64,000 nucleotides of DNA, from assembly GCF_007753265.1 (NCBI RefSeq), contig NZ_CP036349.1, positions 892,363-956,362 of the forward strand, in the 5' to 3' direction. This document shows positions 28,398-57,660 of the stretch, in pieces. A program made the position numbers and the translations under genes. Position 1 is the stretch's first letter; each line of letters starts with the position of its first letter. This stretch comes from Botrimarina mediterranea. Its GTDB lineage: Bacteria > Planctomycetota > Planctomycetia > Pirellulales > Lacipirellulaceae. Below the pieces are notes generated by a model. It made no database searches and was not told the origin of the DNA. It saw only the letters and a program-made list of their open reading frames with translations.

Positions 28398-28647
28398 AGA
28401 CGCGCTTCACTCAGCCTTGTCGCTTCTAGCCTCGCGCAGAGACGCGGAGACGCAGAGTTGGATGTCTTCAAGACTCACGCCAAGGCGCTAAGCCGCAAAG
28501 GACGCACTCTTGCGCGACCGTCGCGGATGCGATCATTCCTTACGGACTTTGTCTTTGCGCCTTGGCGGCTTCGCGTGAGTCTTCTCTGCCTACCCTCTGC
28601 GTCTCCGCGACTCTGCGCGAGACGCTACGGCAAAACGAAGAACGCTA
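28398..28647. repeat. Family E nested inverted-repeat element, copy 1
   Basis: The element is about 250 bp. The outer arms tcgcgcagagacgcggagac and the mirror near 28600-28625 enclose inner arms agactcacgccaaggcgcta and the mirror near 28555-28585. A clearly related copy in opposite orientation is at 42185-42455. No convincing protein is encoded. Confidence 0.85.
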
Positions 28648-42184: not shown

Positions 42185-42455
42185 AGCGTACTTTGTTTTG
42201 CCGTAGCGTCTCGCGCAGAGACGCGGAGGGTAGGCAGCGAAGACTCACGCCAAGCCGCCAAGGCGCAAAGACAAAGTCGTTGAGAAATGAGCGTAGCCGC
42301 TAACGATCGCGCAGCAACGCGTTCTTTGCGGCTTAGCGCCTTTGCGTGAGTCTTGGAGGCATCCAACTCTGCGTCTCTGCGCGAGACTTCCCCACGTTGC
42401 TCCGTGGATCAGAGCGAGGCTAGAAACACTACGGCCAAGTGAAGCACGCTCTAGG
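42185..42455. repeat. Family E nested inverted-repeat element, copy 2
   Basis: Read on the minus strand it aligns with 28398-28647: shared tctcgcgcagagacgcagag, agttggatg, agactcacg...ggcgctaagccgcaaag, gactttgtctttgcgccttg and cgagacgctacggcaaaac. It fills the gap between the membrane protein and ftsH. Confidence 0.85.
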
Positions 42456-47252: not shown

Positions 47253-47327
47253 AGTTGGAACCGCCAGGACGCCAGGAGCGCCAAGGATCGCCAGGGAGGA
47301 TTTTTATCTGAGGTACGTTATCAACAT

Positions 47328-47895
47328 CTGTAGGAGGCGTCTCCGACGCCGATTACGGCCACCATTCTCGATCGAGCATGCCGTTGCCGAGAAGCGACGC
47401 CGAGGAGAATTCCCAGTCAGACGCCACGTCAGCAAGCCCAGCGCGGACCGGATTGTGCTCAATATACTCGCAAAGCGATACGAGTTCATCGCGGTCGCGA
47501 CAATGCCGGTCGTGGAAGCCTTCCTGCCAAACACTTCCCGATTTCGAACGGTGTCGATTGATTTGAAGGGCGGTGAACTTTGAGAAGCTTCGAACCACCT
47601 CCGACAACTCCTCGCCCGGCAGTAAGCAGAAAGCCACATGAAGGTGGTCGGGCATCAGGCAAAACGCGAAGAGCTTAATCCGATCAGTTGCCCGGAGATG
47701 ATTTAGGCTGCCAAGGAGGATCTTCGCATTGGCGGAATCCGACCCTAGCCGCTGCCGGTCCTTGAAGACCTTGGTGACCATGTAGCATTCCCAGGCTTGG
47801 GAAACTCTACCTTCGCGGAGTTTGGAGAGTCTTCCGGCGGGTTGGGATCGATGCGGCATGGTGCGCGTAATCGGCGTCGGAGACGCCTCCTACAG
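47328..47895. mobile_element. RAYT transposase unit with REP arms
   Basis: The arms ctgtaggaggcgtctccgac (47328-47347 and on) and the mirror gtcggagacgcctcctacag (47876-47895) enclose one transposase gene on the minus strand. The right arm runs directly into the start codon of the gene. Short derivatives of the same arms are at 11.4, 17.8, 44.8 and 59.2 kb. Confidence 0.88.
47353..47859 (-). CDS. REP-associated tyrosine transposase (RAYT, Y1 type)
   Basis: This Y1/HUH single-strand nuclease of 168 residues resembles TnpA_REP proteins. The HUH pair is His72-Leu-His74 in MPDHLHVAF, and the catalytic Tyr132 lies in EYIEHNPVRAGLA; both fit the family. WQEGFHDRHC precedes the Tyr as usual. Start ATG 47859 lies at the end of the REP arm (gcgcaccATGCCG), so the gene and arm are physically fused. 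It probably cleaves and moves REP elements. The length is normal, so it may be active. Confidence 0.92.
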   Translation of the reverse strand: MPHRSQPAGRLSKLREGRVSQAWECYMVTKVFKDRQRLGSDSANAKILLGSLNHLRATDRIKLFAFCLMPDHLHVAFCLLPGEELSEVVRSFSKFTALQINRHRSKSGSVWQEGFHDRHCRDRDELVSLCEYIEHNPVRAGLADVASDWEFSSASLLGNGMLDREWWP

Positions 47896-47975
47896 AACGG
47901 TTCCCGTTCAGGAAAAATCGACAGCGTGTTGTCAGCTCTTGGCGATCCTGGCGCTCCTGGCGTCTTGGCGGTTTC

Positions 47976-52375: not shown

Positions 52376-53665
52376 GTGGAAAAGACCAAGATTGGCCTCA
52401 TCGGACTCGGCACGGTTGGGTCGGGCGTCGCTCAGATTCTCTTGGACCATGGAGACCGGACCGCTCGGCAAGCGGGACGGGTGCTGTGGCTCGAGAAGGC
52501 GGCGGTCCGCGACCCCAAGAAGCCCCGGGGCTGTGACGTCCCCGACGGAGTGCTGACGGACGACATCGACGCGGTCGTGGCCGATCCGTCGATCGACGTC
52601 GTCGCCGAGCTGATGGGGGGCGTCGAGCGCGCCCGCGAGGTGGTGCTCGCTTTGCTTAATTCGGGCAAGGACGTCGTGACGGCGAATAAGGCGCTGATCG
52701 CGGCCCATGGGCCCGAGCTGTTCGACGCGGCGCGGGCGGCGGGGCGGACGATTGCTTTCGAAGCGGCGGTCGCCGGCGGCATCCCGATCATCGCCAACCT
52801 CAGCCAATGTCTGTCGGCCAACCAGGTCGAGTCGCTCACCGGCATCCTCAACGGCACCTGCAACTTCATCCTCTCGAAAATGCATCGCGAGGGCGCGCCG
52901 TACGCCGACGTGCTCGCCGAGGCGCAGCGGCTCGGTTACGCCGAGGCCGACCCGGCGATGGACGTCGATGGGACCGACACGGCGCAGAAGCTGGCGATCC
53001 TCGCACACCTGGCGTTCGGCGCGCGGCCCGACTGGCGTGCGATCCCGCGCACCGGGATCGACACGCTCGACCTCGCCGACGTGAAGATGGCCCAGGAGCT
53101 GGGATATACGATCAAGCTGCTGGGCGTTGCGGAGCTTACGGCGAAGGGTTTGCAACTCTCGGTCGGCCCGACGCTGGTGAAAAACGGCAACCCGATGGCG
53201 GACGTGTCGGGGCCGATGAACGCGGTGCGAATCACAGCCGACGCGGTGGGCGAGCTGTTCTTACAGGGGCCAGGCGCGGGGCAGATGCCAACCGCCTCCG
53301 CAGTCGTCGCGGACCTGATCGACACGGCCGTCGGCCGCACGCGGCTGACGTTCCAGACGCTCAAGTTGTGGAGCGCCGAGTCCGACCGCACGCCGGTGGC
53401 CGACCCGGCCGAGGCGCTGGCGAAGTTCTACCTGCGTGTCGAAGCGGCGGACGAGCCGGGCGTCCTCGCGCAGATCGCCGCGGCGCTGGCGGCCGAGGGG
53501 ATCTCAATCGCCAGCTTCCAGCAACAAGCAAGCGAAGCGGCGACGGTGCCGCTGGTGCTGATGACGCACGAGACGACCGAGGGCGCCGTGTCGCGGGCTT
53601 GCGAAGCGATCGGCAAGCTGAAACCCGTCGCGGCGGGGCCGGTACGGCTGCGCGTTGTTGGTTAG
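52376..53665 (+). CDS. hom: Homoserine dehydrogenase
   Basis: This NAD(P)-dependent enzyme of 429 residues reduces aspartate semialdehyde to homoserine, the branch to threonine and methionine. GLGTVGSGVAQIL is the nucleotide site, VTANKALIA and GILNGTCNFILSKM mark the catalytic domain, and the C-terminal ACT domain starts near 345 (EAADEPGVLAQIAAALAAEGISI), so feedback control by threonine is likely. Start GTG 52376. The gene heads a cluster with a proposed homoserine kinase and aspartate kinase, now separated by mobile units. Confidence 0.95.
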   Translation: MEKTKIGLIGLGTVGSGVAQILLDHGDRTARQAGRVLWLEKAAVRDPKKPRGCDVPDGVLTDDIDAVVADPSIDVVAELMGGVERAREVVLALLNSGKDVVTANKALIAAHGPELFDAARAAGRTIAFEAAVAGGIPIIANLSQCLSANQVESLTGILNGTCNFILSKMHREGAPYADVLAEAQRLGYAEADPAMDVDGTDTAQKLAILAHLAFGARPDWRAIPRTGIDTLDLADVKMAQELGYTIKLLGVAELTAKGLQLSVGPTLVKNGNPMADVSGPMNAVRITADAVGELFLQGPGAGQMPTASAVVADLIDTAVGRTRLTFQTLKLWSAESDRTPVADPAEALAKFYLRVEAADEPGVLAQIAAALAAEGISIASFQQQASEAATVPLVLMTHETTEGAVSRACEAIGKLKPVAAGPVRLRVVG

Positions 53666-53680
53666 TTCGCAAGAGAATTA

Positions 53681-54153
53681 ACCACAAAGGAACTAAGGAA
53701 CGAAGGACGGATCAACGGGAAGGGTTTTGTGGGCAGGTTTGAGCCGATCGCTGAAAGGGACGAGGCACTTGCTCGGGTAGTGCTGGACGCGGCCTTTCGT
53801 GTTCACTCGAAGCTTGGCCCTGGTTTGCTCGAGTCGATCTATGAGCACTGCCTTGATAAGGAATTGACGAAGAGTGGAGTTCCTTTTGAGCGTCAGCCGC
53901 TGCTCGCGATCGAGTACGACGGCGAGATCATCGACGCTGGGCTACGGATGGACTTGTTCATTGACAAACGAGTCATCGTCGAACTCAAAGCAGTGGAACA
54001 ACTCGCTCCCATCCACGAAGCCCAACTGTTTACCTACCTCAAGCTGACCAATTGCCGCCTCGGCCTCTTACTCAACTTCAACGTCCCGCATTTCAAAGAT
54101 GGAATCAAACGAGTGGTGCGGTAGCACCCTTCGTTCCTTGGTTCCTTTGTGGT
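53681..54153. mobile_element. Inverted-repeat unit carrying GxxExxY gene 1
   Basis: Terminal repeats accacaaaggaactaaggaa then cgaagg (53681-53706) and ccttcgttccttggttcctt then tgtggt (54128-54153) pair at 25 of 26 bases. The single gene inside fills most of the 421-bp interior. The unit lies between hom and the kinase gene, 15 bp and 12 bp from their ends. Confidence 0.85.
53729..54124 (+). CDS. GxxExxY family PD-(D/E)XK-like protein 1
   Basis: This 131-residue protein has the name motif Gly32-x-x-Glu35-x-x-Tyr38 (PGLLESIYEHCL) and a nuclease-type core: Asp75 in RMDLFID and Glu85-x-Lys87 in VIVELKAV. HEAQLFTYLKLTN and LGLLLNFNV complete the fold. The pattern matches the GxxExxY family, whose role is unknown. 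Start GTG 53729 has GGGAAGGG upstream. The gene is framed by inverted repeats, so it is probably cargo rather than part of the threonine pathway. Confidence 0.9.
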   Translation: MGRFEPIAERDEALARVVLDAAFRVHSKLGPGLLESIYEHCLDKELTKSGVPFERQPLLAIEYDGEIIDAGLRMDLFIDKRVIVELKAVEQLAPIHEAQLFTYLKLTNCRLGLLLNFNVPHFKDGIKRVVR

Positions 54154-54165
54154 GAATAAATCCTT

Positions 54166-55401
54166 ATGAAATACGTAATCGTCATCCCCGACGGCGCCGC
54201 CGATGAGGCGCAGGGTTCGCTCGGTGGTAAGACGCCGCTGGAGGCGGCTGCGACACCGCACATGGTCGCGCTCGCGAAGCGGGGCGTTGTCGCGCGGGCT
54301 TGCCATACGCCTAAGTCGCTGCCGGCGGGGAGTGAGATTGGGAATCTTTCGCTGCTCGGCTACGACCCGTTCGCGCACTTTACCGGCCGGGCGCCGATGG
54401 AGGCGGCTGCGCAGGGGATCGAGCTGGGCGAAGGGGATTGGGCGGTTCGTTGCAACACGGTCACCGTCGAGGATCATGGCGACGGTCCGGTGATGGTGGA
54501 CTTCACGGCGGACCATATCACTTCGGAGGAGTCGGCGGCGCTGCTGAAGACGTTGCAGGACGAGGTCGCTAGCGATCCGAAATGGCGGGGCGCCTTGGAG
54601 TTCGTCCCGGGCGTTAGTTACCGCAACCTCTTGATCTGGCGTGGCGACAAGCTGGCGGCGCCGTTCTCAAACGACACCCGCACTCAGGCGCCGCACGATT
54701 GGACCGACTTGGTGATCCACGACGCCCACCCGAAGGGCCCCGGCGGCGGGGTGCTGGTGGATTTGATGGAGGCTTCGGAGCGGATTTTCGCTGACCATTC
54801 CGTCAATAAGAAACGCGTCGCCGAGGGACACAAGCCGGCGACCAGCGTCTGGCTGTGGGGGCAGGGCGGGGCCCCCACATTGCAGCCGTTCGCTGAGAAG
54901 TTCGGGCCGAAGGGGGCGATGATTACGGCGGTGGACCTGCTGCGCGGCATCGCGGCGCTGGTGGGTTGGGACCGGATCGAAGTCCCCGGCGCCACGGGGT
55001 ATCTCGACACCGACTACGCGGCCAAGGGCCGCTACGCGATCGACGCGCTCGGCAAGTACGATATGGTCTGCGTCCACGTCGAGGCGCCGGACGAGGCGTC
55101 GCACGAAGGCCGGGCCGACGAGAAGGTGAAGGCGATCGAAGAGATCGACCGCCACATCGTCGGCCCGCTGGTCGAGGCGCTAGAGAAACGCGGCGAGCCG
55201 TGGCGCATGATGATCAGCCCCGACCACCCGACGTTTCTCAGCACCAAGAAGCACACCCACGGCGACGTGCCCGTGTGCTTGGCGGGCGAAGGGATCGAGG
55301 CCGACGGGGCTGCGTCTTACGACGACAAAGTGGCGGCGGCGTCCGAGTTGGCGTTCCCGAATGGTTGGGATGCGATGCGCTGGTTTATCAAAGGAAGCTG
55401 A
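54166..55401 (+). CDS. apgM: iPGM-superfamily proposed homoserine kinase
   Basis: This 411-residue alkaline-phosphatase-superfamily protein resembles archaeal-type phosphoglycerate mutase (ApgM). It begins MKYVIVIPDGAADE with the metal Asp. LPAGSEIGNLSLLGYDP holds the nucleophile-position Ser, VHVEAPDEASHEG and ISPDHPTFLSTKKHTHGDVPV give the later metal ligands. Members beside hom and lysC are proposed homoserine kinases in organisms lacking ThrB. The context here fits that better than glycolysis, but both remain possible. Confidence 0.88.
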   Translation: MKYVIVIPDGAADEAQGSLGGKTPLEAAATPHMVALAKRGVVARACHTPKSLPAGSEIGNLSLLGYDPFAHFTGRAPMEAAAQGIELGEGDWAVRCNTVTVEDHGDGPVMVDFTADHITSEESAALLKTLQDEVASDPKWRGALEFVPGVSYRNLLIWRGDKLAAPFSNDTRTQAPHDWTDLVIHDAHPKGPGGGVLVDLMEASERIFADHSVNKKRVAEGHKPATSVWLWGQGGAPTLQPFAEKFGPKGAMITAVDLLRGIAALVGWDRIEVPGATGYLDTDYAAKGRYAIDALGKYDMVCVHVEAPDEASHEGRADEKVKAIEEIDRHIVGPLVEALEKRGEPWRMMISPDHPTFLSTKKHTHGDVPVCLAGEGIEADGAASYDDKVAAASELAFPNGWDAMRWFIKGS

Positions 55402-55867
55402 ACCGCCAAGACGCCAGGAGCGCCAAGGAACGCCAAGAGTGCATGAGCCTAGTGAAGCCGCCGATCGACTGGCGAAGCAGATTTGGGAGTCTGCTCTTGA
55501 AGTCCATCGCGTCCTTGGTGCTGGATTCTTGGAATCGGTATATGAAAGAGCTTTGGAAGTCGAGCTATCCGCGCGAGGAATCGAATTCGCCCGACAACAT
55601 CCCGTTGCTCTTACTTACAAGGGAGTGCCGGTCGGCGATGCGAGGCTTGATTTCTTGATTGGTGGTCTTGTTGTCGTGGAATTGAAGTCCGTCGATTTGC
55701 TTCATGCGATCCATCATGCTCAAGTCCTCAATTACCTTCGTGCGACCAGTCTTGAGCTGGGTCTGCTGATCAACTTCAACGTGCCGTTACTTAAAGACGG
55801 CTTCAAGAGAATCGTACTTACCTAACTTTCCTTGGCGATCCTTGGCGCTCTTGGCGACTTGGCGGTT
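55401..55867. mobile_element. Inverted-repeat unit carrying GxxExxY gene 2
   Basis: Terminal repeats aaccgccaagacgccaggag then cgccaaggaacgccaag (55401-55437) and cttggcgatccttggcgctc then ttggcgacttggcggtt (55831-55867) pair at 34 of 37 bases. The left repeat overlaps the stop codon of the kinase gene. The right repeat ends 5 bp before the lysC ATG. Confidence 0.88.
55439..55825 (+). CDS. GxxExxY family PD-(D/E)XK-like protein 2
   Basis: This 128-residue protein shows Gly29-x-x-Glu32-x-x-Tyr35 (AGFLESVYERAL), Asp71 in RLDFLIGG and Glu81-x-Lys83 in VVVELKSV, then HHAQVLNYLRA and LGLLINFNV. It is about half identical by eye to the copy at 53729, and the flanking repeats are of a different family. 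Start GTG 55439 is the first good start after the inverted repeat; an upstream frame would translate the repeat. Its function is unknown. Confidence 0.9.
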   Translation: MHEPSEAADRLAKQIWESALEVHRVLGAGFLESVYERALEVELSARGIEFARQHPVALTYKGVPVGDARLDFLIGGLVVVELKSVDLLHAIHHAQVLNYLRATSLELGLLINFNVPLLKDGFKRIVLT

Positions 55868-55872
55868 CCCCT

Positions 55873-57660
55873 ATGTCACTTATCGTTCAGAAGTTTGGCG
55901 GCACCAGTGTTGCCGATGCCGAGAAGATCCGTGCCGCCGCTCGTCGGGCGCTCCGCGCGCAGCAGCAGGGGGCGCAGGTGGTCATGGTCGTGTCGGCCAT
56001 GGGGCATCAGACGGACATCCTTGTCGATCTCGCCGCGCAGGTTTGTGAAGACGCGCCGGCGCGGGAGATGGACATGCTGCTCTCGACGGGCGAGCAGGTG
56101 TCGGTGGCGCTGATGGCGATGGCGATTCATGATCTGGGTGGGCAGGCGGTGAGCCTTACCGGGGCGCAGATGGAGATCCGCACCGACAGCGCGCACGGCA
56201 AGGCGCGGATCCGTTCGATCGGGGCAGATCGCATTCGCGCGCACCTCGATGCTGGCCGCATTGTGATCGCCGCGGGGTTCCAGGGAATCGACGAGAACCT
56301 CAATATCACGACCCTCGGCCGCGGCGGCAGCGATACGACTGCGGTGGCGCTGGCGGCGGTGCTCGGCGCCGACATGTGCGAGATCTACACCGACGTGGAC
56401 GGCGTGTTCACGACCGACCCACGGATCGAGCCGGCCGCGCGGAAGATGGACTGCGTGTCGCACGACGAGATTCTGGAGCTGGCAAGCCTCGGCGCGGGCG
56501 TGATGCACAGCCGGTCGATTGAGTTCGGCAAGAAGTTCAACGTGCCGATCCACGTGCGCAACTCGGGCGTCTTCACCGACGTGCCGGGCACGATCATCGG
56601 TCCGCTGAGCGAGGCGGCCGACCGCGCGGTGAGCGGCGCGGCGTTAACGAAGAACGAGGCGCAGCTGACGATCGCCGGCGTGCCGGATAAGCCGGGCGTG
56701 AGCTTGGCGCTGCTGGAGTCGTTGTCGGCGGCGAACCTGTCGGTCGACATGATCGTGCAGAGCCGCGGCGCCGATGGGCGGGCGAACATCTCGTTCACGG
56801 TGCTCGACACGGAGCTGAACGCCGCGAAGAAGGCGGCCAGAGAGGCTGCCGCGGCGGTTGGAGCCCGTGAGGTCCGTGTTGGTGAGCCGGTGTCGAAGGT
56901 CTCGGTCGTCGGTCTCGGGATGGCGAGCCAGCCCGGCGTCGCGCGGCGGATGTTCCGCGCGCTAGCCGACGCGGGCATCAACATTCATGCGATCTCGACC
57001 AGCACGATCAAGGTTTCGTGCCTCGTGGCGCGCGAGCAGGGGCAAGAGGCGTTGCGTGTGGTGCACCGCGAGTTCGAGCTCGGCAAGACGCCGTCGAGCC
57101 CCGCGACGATCGAGGACTCGCTCGCCGCCGCGAAGGAGGCGAAAGCCGCCGACGCCGAGGCGGTGATCGCGAGGCTGCAAGCGATGGAAGAGCTGCGGAT
57201 CGACGGTTGTGAGATCGACGAATCGCAGGCGTTGCTCTCGCTACGGAGTGTGCCCGACACGCCGGGCGTCGCGGCGCAGATCTTCGAGGCGATCGCCGCG
57301 CGGGACGTGATGGTGGACCTGATCGTGCAGTCGATCGGTGAAGACGGCCTCACGAGCGTCGGCATCACGGTGCCGCAGAAAGACGCCAAGGCCGCCGCGG
57401 ATATCGTCGCCGAGGTCGCGGAGAAGATCGGCGGCGAGGTGAGCCTCGACCCGGGCGTTGCGATCCTGTCGGTGACGGGCGTCGGCGTCCGCAGCCACAC
57501 GGGCGTCGGGACGCGCATCTTCCGGGCGCTGAGCGCCGCGGGGATCAACGTCGAGATGATCGGCACCAGCGAGGTGCGCGTCAGCGTCGTGATCGGCGGC
57601 GAGCATGGCGCCAAGGCGCTGGCGGCGACGGAGAAGGCGTTCGCGGACGTGATCCGCTGA
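55873..57660 (+). CDS. lysC: Aspartate kinase with four ACT domains
   Basis: This 595-residue enzyme phosphorylates aspartate at the start of the Lys/Thr/Met pathway. VQKFGGTSVAD is the catalytic start, GRGGSDTTAVALAA the substrate loop, and EIYTDVDGVFTTDPR the metal site. ACT-type repeats follow the 260-residue kinase domain: about 265-345, 345-415, 435-520 and 520-595. Four ACT units match cyanobacterial-type enzymes and suggest dual feedback by lysine and threonine. The upstream inverted repeat may cover its ribosome-binding site. Confidence 0.96.
   Translation: MSLIVQKFGGTSVADAEKIRAAARRALRAQQQGAQVVMVVSAMGHQTDILVDLAAQVCEDAPAREMDMLLSTGEQVSVALMAMAIHDLGGQAVSLTGAQMEIRTDSAHGKARIRSIGADRIRAHLDAGRIVIAAGFQGIDENLNITTLGRGGSDTTAVALAAVLGADMCEIYTDVDGVFTTDPRIEPAARKMDCVSHDEILELASLGAGVMHSRSIEFGKKFNVPIHVRNSGVFTDVPGTIIGPLSEAADRAVSGAALTKNEAQLTIAGVPDKPGVSLALLESLSAANLSVDMIVQSRGADGRANISFTVLDTELNAAKKAAREAAAAVGAREVRVGEPVSKVSVVGLGMASQPGVARRMFRALADAGINIHAISTSTIKVSCLVAREQGQEALRVVHREFELGKTPSSPATIEDSLAAAKEAKAADAEAVIARLQAMEELRIDGCEIDESQALLSLRSVPDTPGVAAQIFEAIAARDVMVDLIVQSIGEDGLTSVGITVPQKDAKAAADIVAEVAEKIGGEVSLDPGVAILSVTGVGVRSHTGVGTRIFRALSAAGINVEMIGTSEVRVSVVIGGEHGAKALAATEKAFADVIR

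Follow-up and report, generated by a model that had tools for sequence, protein, structure and literature searches.

Inverted word arms around GxxExxY genes of Botrimarina mediterranea and of many other bacteria suggest widespread, very small mobile elements

Two described systems come closest to the elements reported here. In RAYT/REPIN systems, a small dedicated enzyme gene is accompanied by dispersed short hairpins, and specific repeat groups pair with specific enzymes (PMC3116915). TIRtrons, or TIRYT elements, carry one gene flanked by long terminal inverted repeats (TIRs), and some have repeat families with the same ends (PMC3733652). Here we analyzed a stretch of 64,000 nucleotides (nt) from Botrimarina mediterranea (Planctomycetota; assembly GCF_007753265.1, contig NZ_CP036349.1, positions 892,363 to 956,362; hereafter the window), in which two genes of the GxxExxY family are each enclosed by inverted arms built from short repeated words. 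The arms, and a word that depends on the protein clade, suggest that these elements form a widespread family of very small mobile units.

By analogy, the best-supported description is that GxxExxY elements may work like RAYT/REPIN with an unrelated enzyme, without being members of that group. As in RAYT/REPIN, a small enzyme gene accompanies a family of short dispersed hairpins. Unlike in RAYT/REPIN, the enzyme belongs to the PD-(D/E)XK nucleases and not to the HUH tyrosine transposases (the window genes match PF13366, not the Y1 family PF01797), the arms are each made of about three direct units, and the gene lies between them. The architecture of TIRtron/TIRYT is the nearest one described, with a different enzyme; some of its TIR sequences may overlap the words found here.

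The two elements occupy the gaps of a row of host genes, all on the forward strand: hom, encoding homoserine dehydrogenase (52376-53665; NF004976, E 6.3e-154), an apgM-type gene, the proposed homoserine kinase (54166-55401; TIGR02535, E 4.9e-148), and lysC, encoding aspartate kinase (55873-57660; NF005656, E 1.3e-207). Element 1 consists of a left arm with the three units CCACAAAGGA, ACTAAGGA and ACGAAGG (53677-53706), the gene gx1 of the PD-(D/E)XK nuclease family (53729-54124; TIGR04256, E 2e-42; PF13366, E 5e-42) and a right arm (54128-54157), which complements the left at 28/30 positions around a core match of 25/26 (53681-53706 with 54128-54153). Element 2 begins within the apgM stop codon (TGA, 55399-55401) with a left arm of the units CGCCAAGA, CGCCAGGAG, CGCCAAGGAA and CGCCAAG (55400-55437), followed by gx2 and a right arm (55831-55868) complementary at 35/38 positions, the core match being 34/37 (55401-55437 with 55831-55867). 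The gene gx2 was placed at 55439-55825 by alignments and by its TIGR04256 match (E 4.4e-40, frame 55361-55822); its start is an assumed GTG inside the element, the reading frame being open from an ATG at 55361. Both genes scored far above the curated cut-offs (144.2 and 136.7 bits for TIGR04256, cut-off 35; 143.4 and 136.2 bits for PF13366, cut-off 22). The local alignment scores of the arms, 50 and 61, far exceeded the maxima of 30 and 27 in 2000 dinucleotide-shuffled flanks, and the core matches agree exactly with those given in the earlier note, which had been made from the sequence of the window alone.

The complete genome (5.87 Mb, one contig) contained six GxxExxY copies, all above the TIGR04256 cut-off. 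Inverted arms of differing sequence were found at each of them (scores 50, 38, 45, 29, 61 and 31), those at two copies, L004 and L006, being weak. Most of these arms consisted of about three similar units in a row, for example CCACAAAGGA-ACTAAGGA-ACGAAGG or CCCACGAATTA-CACGAATTGA-CTCGAAT. Neighbors of the six copies, as read from the DNA and not by hidden Markov model (HMM), include rpoB/rpoC, gatB and tyrS.

A scan of genome contigs for GxxExxY returned at least 590 stretches, 504 of them relatives, and the best 80 were kept. Arms were accepted at a score of at least 28; for shuffled flanks (n = 800) the 99% quantile was 27 and the highest score 35. Terminal inverted repeats, a criterion for insertion sequences and miniature inverted-repeat transposable elements (MITEs), were present at 71 of the 80 loci from many phyla, a share that is biased upward because the 80 loci are the best matches to the copies of this genome, compared with 10/149 neighboring open reading frames (ORFs), two of which (L060 and L071) were second GxxExxY copies. 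The earlier note had suggested looking for terminal inverted repeats around GxxExxY genes of other genomes, and they were found there. A null based on mispaired flanks (35/80 above the 99% quantile) was dropped in favor of the other-ORF and shuffled controls, because words common to many loci inflate it. In the larger set of 111 copies used below, ten scored below 28; word arms were visible by eye in five of these (L026, L075, L082, L107 and L108), one stopped at a contig edge (L081) and four were without word arms by eye (L097, L110, L112 and L123). One own copy (L003) had no match among the INPHARED phages, and a search of IMG/VR with the alignment A2 gave a single relative, which had CACGAAA arms.

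The arms share a common grammar. About three direct units were found per arm, with cores mostly 8-11 nt apart, and the opposite arm was an inverted copy. Of 73 arms, 50 had their autocorrelation peak at 9 nt, 13 at 10 nt and seven at 8 nt. Whole elements scoring at least 34 (n = 86) measured 480 nt at the median, with a 10-90% range of 445-596. Arrays of more than three units with a perfect 9-nt period (CACGAATTA) were seen as overlapping matches in one other genome (G066, for example contigs C16, C18 and C38).

The word in the arms followed the phylogeny of the protein. Word classes, which are regular expressions picked after inspection of the arms, were placed on a quick protein tree of the 111 copies (101 scoring at least 28); the tree is built on few columns, many of its branches are weak, near copies favor clustering on it, and its labels cover 98 rows, with 13 of the 111 left out (five 'none' and eight 'other'). 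Across the 98 rows the word class changed 17 times, compared with a shuffled mean of 61.6, and none of 200 shuffles was as low. For the 67 rows with a phylum name, the word required 15 changes (least 7, shuffled 38.5) and the phylum 32 (least 18, shuffled 48.2); for the 56 rows from phyla with at least three, the numbers were 14 (shuffled 32.9) and 21 (shuffled 37.4), each with eight states and a least of 7. The CAGGAT class alone included Acidobacteriota, Chloroflexota, Planctomycetota, Bacteroidota, Nitrospirota, Nitrospinota, Elusimicrobiota and others. The classes NGAAT, NGAG and CGAAA were scarcely or not clustered (7, 4 and 2 changes for 9, 5 and 2 rows). Within classes the word was retained at a median protein identity of 45-68% and a minimum of 30%, therefore neutral co-inheritance alone seems unlikely, though possible. 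Genes of the gx1 type that occupy the apgM-lysC site in relatives (L023, L026, L029 and L032) likewise bore gx1-type words.

Since the word tracks the protein tree, the ends are not freely exchanged, and gene and ends travel together. The proposal of the earlier note that such elements can exchange their ends is therefore not supported as the rule by the protein tree. End mixing is possible, as indicated by one exception, a relic in the same genome (genome positions 2134902-2135414) with CCAAG outer arms, an AANGG word on the left, a CGCGGAG word on the right and no intact gene.

The words also co-occurred with the gene at the level of genomes. GxxExxY was found in 93 of 195 Planctomycetota genomes, which were searched for exact arrays of ACAGGAT, CRCAGAT or CRCGAAT regardless of the clade of the resident gene. 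Word arrays were present in 50 of the 93 genomes with the gene and in 1 of the 102 genomes lacking it (p 2e-19, kinship of genomes being ignored), and the reversed-pattern control gave zero throughout. With family f33 and this genome removed, the respective counts were 32/74 and 1/102. The arms of GxxExxY themselves count among the word sites, hence the numbers were compared: 909 word sites stood against a maximum of 438 arms. Word sites exceeded twice the number of GxxExxY copies in 23 of the 51 word-bearing genomes, 22 of which encoded the gene (p 3.6e-7); as in REPIN/RAYT, dispersed repeats thus outnumber the enzyme gene there.

The protein is predicted to be a nuclease. The gx2 product has 128 amino acids, and in an alignment (A3) of 85 GxxExxY sequences G27, G29, E32, Y35, D71, E81, K83 and N112 were invariant, Q95 and Y99 were conserved in at least 90%, and no cysteine was invariant or nearly so. 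D, ExK and a downstream Q are the catalytic residues of PD-(D/E)XK nucleases of the Cas4/RecB/lambda exonuclease type, and Q-x3-Y is a mark of that group; D71, E81, K83 and Q95 correspond to the former. The structure model (pLDDT 96.9) had LHK-Exo, lambda exonuclease and SSO0001 as top PDB rows in Foldseek, with a best E-value of just 1.9e-3. In VIA, which speaks only to the fold families on its list, the top match was SSO0001 (4ic1), a Cas4 protein, with Z 9.7 over 99 residues, the next rows being at 7.3. Among solved structures, no GxxExxY relative was found by sequence. The predicted fold appears to resemble Cas4, lambda exonuclease and RecB, and the E-D-ExK and Q-x3-Y residues are in common with them; the small size, the lack of a conserved cysteine and the weak Foldseek E-values set GxxExxY apart from them. 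Conservation of the active site speaks against an inert passenger. The earlier note had called the gene cargo of inverted-repeat elements; its place within such elements stands, and the label itself appears doubtful in view of the invariant catalytic residues and the rarity of word arrays in gene-free Planctomycetota.

Comparisons of loci favor mobility, judging from short gaps, an empty site in Sphingomonas and one arm-bounded pair in different contexts. The elements of L089 (Nitrospinota) and L136 (Nitrospirota) were 77.9% identical over 485 nt, the similarity ending 3-10 nt past the arms, and their 400-nt flanks had no match bar one 25-nt stretch. In Sphingomonas parapaucimobilis an element occupies the space between fabD and fabG (464 nt, stop to start), which measures 32 nt in Sphingomonas paeninsulae (fabG start by reading) and 24 nt in Sinorhizobium meliloti. 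A search for an empty counterpart of the Bacteroides finegoldii site by near copies returned only that site itself.

The hom-apgM-lysC row was matched in 42 of the 43 family genomes searched, and the best 30 were used as loci. GxxExxY was located in its gaps or directly beside apgM in 18/30 loci, with two copies in 7/30, a fragment in L036 being left out of the 18. Short hom-apgM gaps were found in other genera (31, 44, 55, 58 and 37 nt in L018, L020, L023, L027 and L036), as was a short apgM-lysC gap of 30 nt (L033), and gene-less hairpins with the same grammar were seen by eye at seven of the loci (L017, L018, L019, L020, L022, L027 and L034). Across the family, the sites are occupied repeatedly. 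The congeners G007 and G009 had both elements at the same two places, therefore the window copies are old and inherited, not recent. A hom-apgM gap of 12 nt in G008, of the same genus, is not a clean empty site because its hom is just 57.5% identical. The mobility expected by the earlier note is accordingly supported by short gaps in other genera and not by the congeners; an unchanged arrangement in relatives, which it had held to speak against mobility, was found within the genus and not within the family.

The reading that we favor, with slightly better than even confidence, is that of a co-evolving nuclease-plus-ends element, which would behave like a mobile element, give rise to gene-less derivatives and encode a protein that reads its own ends. 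GxxExxY, as a single-domain PD-(D/E)XK nuclease of the Cas4/RecB/lambda exonuclease type, would recognize, in both arms, the words that belong to its own clade, and may nick or trim the DNA there. Host replication or repair would then copy the bounded element into intergenic gaps, and an internally deleted, gene-less hairpin could be copied likewise. Word binding, cleavage, transposition and the gene as the cause of the spread are what we infer here.

Several results weigh against this reading. Phylum also clusters on the protein tree, less than the word does, and the linkage of word and gene could partly be co-inheritance. None of the three word arrays occurred in 43 of the 93 Planctomycetota genomes with GxxExxY, and the sole exception among those lacking it, G048, had 32 CRCAGAT arrays and no TIGR04256 match. 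In the own genome some hairpin words were without an obvious cognate GxxExxY copy. Among eight distant plasmid records, found with one own copy, three scored at least 28 (from B. finegoldii, Bernardetia and Sphingomonas); some others, by eye, had word-like repeats as direct copies or a one-sided hairpin. Of 258 aligned pairs, 89 were confined to the element, 105 spanned both flanks and 64 did neither, and most of the 89 ended well inside the element, as local alignment would. All four ends lay within 10 nt of the arms just in L089-L136 among the 40 listed confined pairs, and the match of L089 with L096 (84.4% over 436 nt, unrelated flanks) stopped 114-165 nt inside the detected arms of L096. 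Because many records are metagenome-assembled genomes, misbinning is a caveat for such pairs. No near-identical copies were seen within one genome, the dedicated look covering the six copies of the own genome. Target-site duplications were not in excess over mispaired flanks in a set of 61 elements (mean best k of 2.56, compared with 2.71 for the null); some mobile elements produce none.

Two side observations concern these loci. In the plasmids of Prevotella nigrescens and Fusobacteria ZRK30 (L262 and L263), word-like repeats flank GxxExxY directly and not inverted, by eye. At about 2900-3500 in L075, L086 and L089, from three phyla, a CAGGAT-class element lies beside genes resembling type I restriction-modification subunits, by DNA reading and not by HMM; L089 has just the left of these flanks in common.

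Gene-less hairpins were abundant. A search of 2.0 Mb of the own genome gave 560 inverted repeats with a score of at least 32, and 116 of them had the unit grammar by autocorrelation, part of these sitting in coding sequence and resembling chance; a 400-kb shuffled control gave three inverted repeats and none with the grammar, and a 50-kb stretch of E. coli had none of these repeats. They resemble MITEs in having ends common to gene-bearing elements and differ from MITEs in that no target-site duplication was found and no recognized transposase family is at the source. In the window, nested gene-less hairpins with word arms lie at 28431-28621 (outer GCGCAGAGACGCGGAGACGCAGAG, inner 28470-28583 beginning CACGCCAAGGCGC), with a second copy at 42208-42387 (inner 42240-42354). 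A nested compound of two hairpins with differing words (outer GCGCAGAGACGCGGAGACGCAGAG, inner CACGCAAAGGCGCAAAG) and no gene recurs elsewhere in the genome. Other palindromes, of GTAG-tagged families resembling repetitive extragenic palindromes (GTAGGTCAGGCTGTGCCTGACG) and of GGCGAGCCGGCGACG families, occur at many places in the genome (for example L053, 5032-5100).

Other genes were also found between word arms. On the reverse strand of the window, a related element at 47259-47973 has CCAAG-word arms (47259-47283 and 47949-47973) around a Y1 transposase gene (47353-47859); at its place the congeners have gaps of 703 nt (G007) and 635 nt (G009). Its transposase is RAYT-like, it contains an inner inverted pair beginning TGTAGGAGGCG, and its neighbors read like leuS and glgC. 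Elsewhere in the genome, word arms enclose a gene for an SMI1/KNR4 protein (714588-715109) and a 91-amino-acid ORF without a Pfam match (4749932-4750279), and in G009 they enclose an ORF of 179 amino acids that resembles a membrane protein, by reading and not by Pfam. The arms can thus hold other genes, which is a further point against the favored reading.

This cargo bears on the alternative that survives best, one that we nevertheless consider unlikely: the arms would be the ends of a separate repeat or MITE system moved in trans, for example by Y1 tyrosine transposases in the manner of TIRYT, and GxxExxY would be its most successful passenger. Besides the Y1 element with CCAAG arms, it is supported by an excess of gene-less hairpins over genes, and TIR-flanked RAYT-like genes have been described (PMC3733652). 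Y1 transposases were detected in 132 of the 195 Planctomycetota genomes. Word arrays occurred in 46/78 genomes with GxxExxY and Y1, 4/15 with GxxExxY only, 1/54 with Y1 only and 0/48 with neither. Within the genomes carrying GxxExxY, Y1 was weakly linked to more word arrays (p 0.026), in favor of the passenger explanation and against ours. However, the effect of GxxExxY was present both with Y1 and without it, and the presence of Y1 alone does not explain the word arrays. Word arms also enclosed just one of three own Y1 genes checked (five found), and the tracking of the GxxExxY tree by the word argues against a passenger as well.

A second alternative, which we regard as improbable, is that the arms function at the RNA level: as hairpins of operon transcripts they would be processed like the intervening sequences of 23S rRNA, with GxxExxY as a co-transcribed nuclease and the units kept for regulation. 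The position of the window elements in the gaps of a gene row, one of them at a stop codon, would fit. Within an element the two arms agreed at.83-.91 (inflated by the choice of arms by local alignment), compared with.48-.63 for arms on the same side in different elements of one class, a difference expected from pairing or concerted change. In CAGGAT elements (n = 24) the spacers of the two arms also matched more within elements (82/126) than between them (930/2088). However, the cores of these elements agreed at 389/402, therefore what is conserved is the core as a word rather than an unbroken, full stem. The nearest folds are mostly those of DNA nucleases. Codirectional neighbors were not in excess (33/55 loci, with eight 'far' ones and those without a called neighbor left out, vs 13/23 triples of a small control), by which preferential codirectional insertion in operons was rejected too. 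Unlike the intervening sequences, which are located within rRNA genes, the window elements lie between protein genes. Insertion in rRNA, a candidate prompted by flanks common to several phyla, was likewise rejected; Rfam on 20 of the 80 loci gave no rRNA, the sole RNA match being a tRNA in L072. Highly improbable, finally, is the view that GxxExxY serves the host as a hairpin nuclease, removing or limiting palindromic repeats that in turn select for the gene: this view fits the co-occurrence of arrays and gene and the Cas4/RecB-like fold, but in most close homologues the gene itself is flanked by matching arms and has their clade-specific word, its distribution is patchy (93/195 genomes), and some copies have in-frame stops.

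In the open-access papers searched, which exclude bioRxiv and most subscription papers, nothing was found tying TIGR04256 or PF13366 to inverted word arms. TIGR04256 was not found there, the mentions of GxxExxY did not, in the portions accessible, discuss inverted repeats around the gene, and one of six word sequences occurs, in a human cancer paper.

These results give a testable role to GxxExxY, a common family named merely for its motif, and a likely owner to widespread intergenic repeats. A more far-reaching claim, which we put forward only tentatively, is that of a new and widespread minimal class of mobile element: a protein of about 128 amino acids resembling Cas4 and lambda exonuclease would read a clade-specific word three times per inverted end and, alone with host repair, spread both full elements and gene-less hairpins into intergenic gaps, and protein and word would have co-diversified across phyla as a natural protein-to-DNA-word code. 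If true, the enzyme of this class would fall outside the usual kinds of transposases and recombinases. If the protein reads the words, the pairs of clade and word would be a panel for how a small nuclease fold gains DNA specificity.

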